Shown: piece after piece, positions 63,240-64,000 of the stretch | Numbering within the stretch: position 1 is the stretch's first letter | Layout: each line of letters begins with the position of its first letter | Assembly (NCBI RefSeq): GCF_030811555.1 | Contig: NZ_JAUSQZ010000001.1 | Span: forward strand, 3,841,241-3,905,240 | Length of the DNA: 64,000 nucleotides | Origin: Kineosporia succinea | GTDB taxonomy: Bacteria; Actinomycetota; Actinomycetes; Actinomycetales; Kineosporiaceae | Direction: 5' to 3' | Made by a program: the position numbers and the translations under genes | The notes under the pieces: model-generated | Seen by the model: the letters and a program-made list of their open reading frames with translations, nothing else | Database searches by the model: none | What the model was told of the DNA's origin: nothing

Positions 63240-63638
63240 ATGAAGCTCCGACTCGCCGTCATCGAATTCGTCGTCTCCGACATGGCCGCCACGCTGGCCT
63301 TCTACCGCCTGCTCGGGCTGGACCTGCCCGATCCGGCGGTGGCCGGGGGCGAGCCCCACGTGCAGGCCGATCTCGGGGGGATCCAGCTCGCGTTCGACAC
63401 CGAGGAGACCATCCGGTCGTTCCACCCGGAGTGGACCCGGCCCCCGGCCGGTGCCGGCCAGTCGGCCGTGGCGCTGCTCGCCGGGTCCCCGGGAGAGGTG
63501 GACGAGGCCTACGCGGCCGTCGTGGCGGCCGGGTACGAGGGCGAACTGGCGCCCTGGGACGCGGTGTGGGGGCAGCGGTACGCCGTGGTGCGTGACCCGG
63601 ACGGGAACCAGGTCGACCTCTTCGCGCCGCTGGGCTGA
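63240..63638 (+). CDS. VOC-family (glyoxalase/bleomycin-resistance fold) protein
   Basis: 132 residues from the ATG at 63240 (GTG at 63231 also in frame). LAVIEFVVSDMAATLAFYRLLGLDLP opens the first beta-alpha-beta-beta-beta unit; RYAVVRDPDGNQVDLFAPLG closes the second. The metal site usual for glyoxalases is not complete (FVVSDM has no His), so it may bind a small molecule rather than catalyse. Located 190 bases before the putative RiPP precursor gene, same direction. Confidence 0.88.
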   Translation: MKLRLAVIEFVVSDMAATLAFYRLLGLDLPDPAVAGGEPHVQADLGGIQLAFDTEETIRSFHPEWTRPPAGAGQSAVALLAGSPGEVDEAYAAVVAAGYEGELAPWDAVWGQRYAVVRDPDGNQVDLFAPLG

Positions 63639-63776: not shown

Positions 63777-63827
63777 GGGCGTACAACTGGGTGATCGTTG
63801 TCAGCTGATCAGAAGGGACGGCCGCGC

Positions 63828-63908
63828 ATGACCATCATTCGCTCGCTCCAGAAGAAGATCGCTCACCGTCGCAGTCTGAAGAGCAAGGCCTGGTACGGCT
63901 GGATCTGA
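63828..63908 (+). CDS. candidate atropopeptide (tryptorubin-like) RiPP precursor
   Basis: A 26-residue peptide from the ATG at 63828, with AAGGGA nine bases upstream. The leader is short and basic (MTIIRSLQKKIAHRRSLKSK) and ends in an RSLK motif; the C-terminus is AWYGWI. As I recall, the tryptorubin A precursor has the same plan: about 25-30 residues, a KSLK-type motif and the core AWYIWY, which a cytochrome P450 cross-links through its aromatic residues. Trp2, Tyr3 and Trp5 of the core are kept; position 4 is Gly and position 6 is Ile, so the third aromatic partner is missing. The next gene starts 61 bases downstream. No similarity search was possible. Confidence 0.72.
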   Translation: MTIIRSLQKKIAHRRSLKSKAWYGWI

Positions 63909-63915
63909 TGCGTCA

Positions 63916-63950
63916 CCGGCCCGGCGGGCAGTCACCTCCCGCCGGGCCGG
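63916..63950 (+). terminator. hairpin between precursor and downstream gene, possible attenuator
   Basis: Perfect 13-bp stem (63916-63928 with 63938-63950), nine-base loop, no T-run. It starts seven bases after the precursor stop. Partial termination here would give more precursor than enzyme, a usual arrangement in RiPP operons. Confidence 0.65.
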
Positions 63951-63969
63951 CCGCCGAAAGGGGTTGCCG

Positions 63970-64000
63970 ATGACCGCTGATCGGGCCACCGTACTGGCGC
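63970..64000 (+). CDS. start of a gene cut by the window end
   Basis: Ten codons (MTADRATVLA) after a GAAAGGGG site eight to fifteen bases upstream. Too short to identify. Position right after the precursor makes a cytochrome P450 the main hypothesis; this is inference only. Confidence 0.5.
   Translation, partial: MTADRATVLA

Follow-up and report, generated by a model that had tools for sequence, protein, structure and literature searches.

At the end of the window, a short precursor gene and the P450 gene that follows it almost certainly form a minimal two-gene atropopeptide cluster, composed of a tryptorubin-family precursor and its modifying P450. The window is the whole analysed stretch of 64,000 nucleotides, positions 3841241-3905240 of the one-contig Kineosporia succinea genome (8,065,021 bases), and the precursor gene, an intergenic hairpin and the start of the P450 gene are all located within its last 173 bases. 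Judged by the sequence features described below, the pair belongs to an already described family.

Precursor gene and adjacent P450 gene

An overview of the locus is given in Table 1. The translated product of the precursor gene is MTIIRSLQKKIAHRRSLKSKAWYGWI (26 aa). A preliminary description of this DNA had reported a 26-codon gene with its own ribosome site, an RSLK motif and a C-terminal AWYGWI, followed by a hairpin and a new gene start, and each of these elements is found in the sequence. Its assignment of the peptide to the atropopeptide precursors is borne out as well, both by a family model and by the nature of the next gene. The curated NCBI model NF038372 (NCBIfam tryptorubin_fam, 'tryptorubin family RiPP precursor'; cut-off 33 bits) matches the precursor over residues 1-26 of 26 with 37.9 bits (E 1.5e-9). 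In a six-frame scan with the same model, the precursor is the sole match in its own genome (35.3 bits, E 1.9e-7), scoring below two Streptomyces-like precursors (51.5 and 55.9 bits), and a match was found in 0 of 14 control genomes. Among the sampled genomes, own genome counted, matches occur in 3 of 394 from the class and 2 of 396 from the phylum.

According to the available part of PMC11450843, atropopeptides are recognized by a precursor of 10-40 aa, a motif of the KSLK group (KSLK, RSLK, ESLK, KSRK, KPLK or PSLK) located around residues 17-20, a core in which W2 is conserved and which usually shows the pattern xWxxWx with an aromatic pair, and an adjacent P450. The 26-residue precursor consists of a leader and a C-terminal core; RSLK stands where the AWYIWY precursor of genome G315 has KSLK; and the core A-W-Y-G-W-I contains W2, the xWxxWx pattern and the aromatic pair. 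The adjacent P450 is of the atropopeptide-modifying kind, with a PF00067 match and 53-60% identity to P450s located beside such precursors. A new RiPP class was rejected, as every testable atropopeptide feature is present.

Table 1 Features of the precursor-P450 locus (positions without prefix are those of the window)
Feature	Position	Strand	Remarks
Glyoxalase/VOC-family protein (upstream neighbour)	63240-63638	+	PF00903, E 1e-17
Shine-Dalgarno-like AGAAGGGA of precursor gene	63811-63818	+	9 nt 5' of ATG; read from sequence
Precursor gene	63828-63908	+	ATG 63828; last codon ends 63905; TGA 63906-63908; 26 codons plus stop
Precursor leader MTIIRSLQKKIAHRRSLKSK			followed by the core AWYGWI, the last six residues
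RSLK motif, residues 15-18	63870-63881	+	proposed family recognition motif; RSLK is named in the available part of PMC11450843
Core hexapeptide AWYGWI	63888-63905	+	from sequence; identical core adjoins homologous P450s in at least five other loci
Intergenic hairpin	63916-63950	+	13 G-C pairs, 9-nt loop; between precursor stop and P450 start
Shine-Dalgarno-like GAAAGGGG of P450 gene	63956-63963		upstream of ATG 63970
P450 gene start	63970-64000	+	continues to genome position 3906238 including stop (L003:7211-8239)
Prolyl-oligopeptidase-family gene	L003:10629-12815	-	about 2.4 kb downstream of P450
M1 aminopeptidase gene	L003:17282-18988	-	about 9 kb downstream of P450

Whether the next gene encodes a P450 had been named as a check in the preliminary description, and it does: the product has 342 residues and matches Pfam PF00067 with E 7.7e-12 and 45.2 bits (gathering score 22.8), the match being limited to residues 212-307 in the C-terminal third. 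The protein carries an E-x-x-R motif (ETLR) and the haem-thiolate stretch FGHVQERCWG, and its best PDB sequence matches are P450s as well. The usual P450 haem motif has a Gly four residues before the Cys. This Gly is absent from the motif of the window P450 (P0001; FGHVQERC, residues 286-293) and from all members with the pattern FGHxxERC, which is found in 75 of 76 compared family P450s, window included; the P450 of locus L089 lacks the whole pattern. The P450 of G315, outside that set of 76, reads FGHGSERC with the Gly present. For the K. mesophila ortholog, a model built with 23 relatives in the alignment (mean pLDDT 78.1, pTM 0.81) predicts a P450 fold. P450s are among the 50 PDB matches listed for this model (best E 4.6e-7), with TM-scores by query length of 0.43-0.60 and an rmsd of 6.9-11.5.

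Downstream of the P450 gene, an AraC-type regulator is encoded on the opposite strand, and no protease or known tailoring enzyme is encoded by the genes directly flanking the pair. Further downstream, genes for an MscS-type channel, a prolyl-oligopeptidase-family protein, a 4-alpha-glucanotransferase and an M1 aminopeptidase are found. The prolyl-oligopeptidase-family and M1 aminopeptidase genes are possible, unlinked candidates for the removal of the leader or of Ala1.

Conservation in Kineosporia and in other genera

Orthologs of the P450 are present in three of six Kineosporia genomes, own included, namely in G003 (76% identity) and in K. mesophila JCM 16902 (G002; 70%). The match in G004 is only 31% identical and covers query residues 190-319 (L032 region). 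The precursors of G003 and K. mesophila are MAIINSVKRRIARRTSLKNKVWYAWI and MAMIRLMTQKITHRKSLKSKAWYAWI, respectively, and share 15 and 17 of 26 residues with that of the window. The congener cores are AWYAWI and VWYAWI, the latter in G003, and like the window core, both contain Tyr3. Across the six genomes of the genus, NF038372 reaches E 0.001 in two and its cut-off in one, so that the model alone undercounts. The earlier remark that so short a gene is easily missed by annotation thus applies to the copies in K. mesophila (31.4 bits, under the cut-off) and G003 (short of E 0.001) but not to that of the window, which the curated model catches.

In a comparison of 14-kb stretches, the only DNA matching K. 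mesophila is the precursor-P450 pair. In G003, a single inverted stretch of 560 columns is matched as well, separated from the pair by about 8 kb in the window's genome. Going by these alignments, the two-gene cassette occupies different surroundings in the three Kineosporia genomes. The precursor gene can be regarded as more than a chance frame, because NF038372 matches it at full length with no match in the 14 controls, a P450 gene lies downstream and the pair is kept in two congeners.

A P450-alignment scan of the species-genome collection gave 221 stretches, 157 of them relatives. The analysis covers the best 80 of these 157, representing 79 loci, and all counts in this survey refer to them. 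Full-length P450 matches outside Kineosporia are 53-60% identical to the window P450. L111, a fragment of a Mycobacterium MAG with 39% identity, is hardly a family member. In 76 of the 79 loci, the P450 gene is preceded by a precursor-like frame, sought as a short frame that carries a KSLK-type motif and ends in W-x-x-aromatic; no such frame was found at L105, L110 and L111. Other cores would escape the survey, since the search pattern presupposes a core of this type.

The core tally comprises 79 frames in 77 loci, with the window included and G003 outside it. The most frequent cores are AWYIWY (18), AWYFWY (16) and AWYLWY (16), followed by AWYGWI (6, window included), AWYHWY (5) and SWYIWY (5). 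Thirteen cores occur once each, including AWPRF, a second frame in L058 that was judged to be chance. Beside a homologous P450, AWYGWI is encoded in Streptomyces diastatochromogenes, S. noursei, S. sp. A 4/2, S. sp. CB02959 and Umezawaea endophytica, and AWYGWL in Saccharothrix obliqua. The core had been described as new; with AWYGWI in at least five other actinobacterial loci and AWYGWL in at least one, this is ruled out, and AWYGWI is not new to sequence databases. A search of the literature for AWYGWI-type cores, with supplements and figures outside its scope, gave no atropopeptide paper among the matches listed.

Several loci of the survey show features of their own. The motifs TSLK (G003/L028 and Kutzneria L092), QSLK (L040, L094) and RSFK (L068) are found in precursors adjoining family P450s; such clusters would escape the refined CoreFinder, as these motifs are off its required list as given in the available part of PMC11450843. 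In the Xanthomonas loci L084, L104 and L105, the P450 frames from the match start are short (95, 154 and 191 residues), so that these genes are probably broken or misassembled. Two successive precursor genes with the cores SWPHWY and AWEGYISY precede one P450 in L106 (Xanthomonas sp. GPE 39). Atropopeptide-type pairs are also encoded in Pseudomonadota beyond Xanthomonas, namely in Burkholderia multivorans (L098), Collimonas humicola (L053) and a Luteibacter MAG (L066).

The phylogenetic reconstruction comprises 76 P450s, i.e. those of 74 of the 79 loci, the window and G003, with five short or partial ones omitted; it is a quick tree without bootstrap and with midpoint rooting only. The three Kineosporia P450s group together on a single long branch (SH-aLRT 100); a separate clade (SH-aLRT 99) is formed by the six WYGW P450s of other genera. 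A clade of the window and these six that leaves out the other Kineosporia P450s is rejected by the AU test (p 4e-5), and one uniting all three Kineosporia P450s with the six is tolerated (p 0.42). The p values are indicative only, since the tree is a quick, midpoint-rooted one and the groups were named after it had been viewed. Read on this tree, Gly4 either arose twice or became Ala in the other Kineosporia.

Predicted product, hairpin and alternative readings

By analogy to characterized relatives, the leader and the RSLK motif would anchor the peptide to the P450. This enzyme would then oxidatively link Trp2 to both Trp5 and Tyr3 and bond Trp5 to a backbone nitrogen, and cell proteases would take off the leader and perhaps Ala1. 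In atropopeptides, the P450-made biaryl and C-N cross-links have a fixed atropisomer, and the leader is cleaved off by a protease from outside the cluster. Since the core retains W2, Y3 and W5, the side chains that are bonded in varsorubin B1, the tryptorubin bond pattern is the default expectation. The preliminary description had correctly stated that the core keeps Trp2, Tyr3 and Trp5 with Gly4 and Ile6, and had concluded that fewer or different cross-links would be formed. Gly4 and Ile6 do not entail this, since varsorubin B1 (WYQWL), with Gln4 and Leu6 and thus neither Ile4 nor Tyr6, reaches three bonds: a Trp-Trp C-C, a Trp-Tyr C-N and a Trp-backbone C-N bond (PMC11450843, available part). 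As four H are lost in forming these three bonds, the suggested mass criterion of minus 2 H per cross-link is inexact. The calculated mass of AWYGWI equals that of the varsorubin core WYQWL, because Ala and Gly together weigh the same as Gln. The calculated [M+H]+ values are 795.3824 for linear AWYGWI (793.3668 and 791.3511 after loss of 2 and 4 H), 724.3453 for WYGWI (722.3297 and 720.3140) and 611.2613 for WYGW (609.2456 and 607.2300).

The same source reports that the varsorubin P450 also yields a one-bond product, so that sequence allows either bond count. It is possible, if less than probable, that the main product of the same gene pair is monocyclic and, like scabrirubin or varsorubin B2a, has Trp2-Trp5 as its one bond; it would perhaps be trimmed to WYGW. 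The solved products of ScaB have only a C-N Trp-Trp bond, including those from WYIWY and WYQWL cores, and all but one of the changes made between its two Trp are tolerated, including Ala, with Gly outside the set (PMC12352619, available part). The long separate Kineosporia P450 branch likewise means that the bond pattern need not follow that of tryptorubin. On the other hand, the three Kineosporia cores all retain Tyr3, and LauA and SvaA, both WYxW precursors, yield tryptorubin B and varsorubin B1, each with three bonds, when combined with their own first P450 (PMC11450843, available part). A silent or decaying cluster, with intact yet unexpressed genes, is very unlikely. It would agree with the presence of the P450 ortholog in only half of the six sampled Kineosporia genomes and with the absence of a sigma-70-type promoter match from L003 6850-8400. 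However, both frames are open and appear constrained, given the identities of precursors and P450s among the congeners, and the promoter scan used a single consensus for which shuffles average 0.1 matches, so that its silence says little.

The ORF is short and the GC-rich hairpin after it could conceivably be an attenuator; on this reading, the frame would have arisen by chance or would encode a leader peptide that regulates the P450 gene, and the peptide would not be a substrate. This can practically be dismissed in view of the full-length NF038372 match, of the proven products of the family (PMC11450843, available part), and of the 76 loci, out of 79, that show the same arrangement with a conserved motif and a WxxW/Y core; the family model, the neighbouring P450 and the congeners speak against a chance ORF in particular. 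The hairpin itself is present in all three Kineosporia genomes with 13, 14 and 15 pairs, within +8 to +44 after the stop; in G003 and K. mesophila, its letters differ from those of the window with the pairing intact (G-U allowed). Stems of at least 9 pairs, G-U included, were counted over the 70 nt that follow the precursor: 39 of 77 loci have one, versus 14 of 77 for the upstream control. This count was made without G003, and some of its stretches extend into the P450 gene. The fold z-score is below -2 in 39 of 77 loci, and in shuffles the longest stem averages 6.8. A hairpin after the precursor is common, not universal, in loci of the family.

No T-run terminator was found by a scan at the hairpin region. 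Shuffles predict almost none of these and almost no promoters, and both nulls are therefore uninformative. Insertion of a ribosome site before the P450 gene of the sva cluster raised the yield 100-fold (PMC11450843, available part), a gain that would fit limiting P450 expression in that cluster and is silent on hairpins. The words hairpin, terminator and intergenic are absent from the main texts of PMC11450843 and PMC12352619. Speculatively, the intergenic hairpin may lower P450 expression relative to the precursor. A wider reading, which we consider rather doubtful, is that the separate long-branched Kineosporia P450 lineage with WY[G/A]WI cores (small residue 4, Ile6) and the WYGW[I/L] clusters found in actinobacteria outside the genus form a sub-branch specialized for compact cores. 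Within it, Gly4 would have arisen twice or been lost to Ala in Kineosporia, and the hairpin, kept with changed letters, would tune the substrate:enzyme ratio.

Taken as a two-gene atropopeptide cluster, the locus offers a natural, intact pair for a WYGWI core in Kineosporia. Its P450 could widen the set of P450 macrocyclases, as it shares only 53-60% identity with those outside the genus; the separate branch and the hairpin are of minor interest. The wider value is modest, because more than 650 atropopeptide clusters have already been counted (PMC11450843, available part). A literature search for Kineosporia and RiPP gave nothing beyond a general review.

Comparison with known systems

The AWYGWI and AWYGWL pairs of other genera have the same or nearly the same core and a homologous P450 downstream, and differ from the window in the leader, e.g. 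MKFVRLVKRMRTEKSLKAY in S. noursei, and in the separate clade of their P450s. A biarylitide is rejected, as these have a five-residue precursor in an 18-bp gene (PMC13417212, available part) compared to 26 residues here. The tryptorubin A cluster (AWYIWY, P450 TryB) likewise comprises a precursor gene and, after it, a P450 gene; its precursor has a KSLK-type motif as well as W2, Y3 and W5. In the window, RSLK replaces KSLK, Gly4 replaces Ile4 and Ile6 replaces Tyr6, and the P450 is located on its own Kineosporia branch; for this enzyme, the comparison is with the P450 of G315. The G315 P450, beside an AWYIWY precursor of 26 residues with the motif at 15-18, is 55% identical to that of the window, and the G174 P450, beside an AWYLWY precursor, 58%.

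The varsorubin cluster (sva, SWYQWL), likened by core and products (PMC11450843, available part), shares W2, Y3, W5 and an aliphatic residue 6 with the window core and differs in Ser1, Gln4 and Leu6. Amycolatopsis xylanica, the amyxirubin producer according to the same source, carries a pair of the same architecture (L096, AWYIWW). Its P450 is 54% identical over 338 columns, whereas core residues 4 and 6 differ and the leader is shorter than that of the window.
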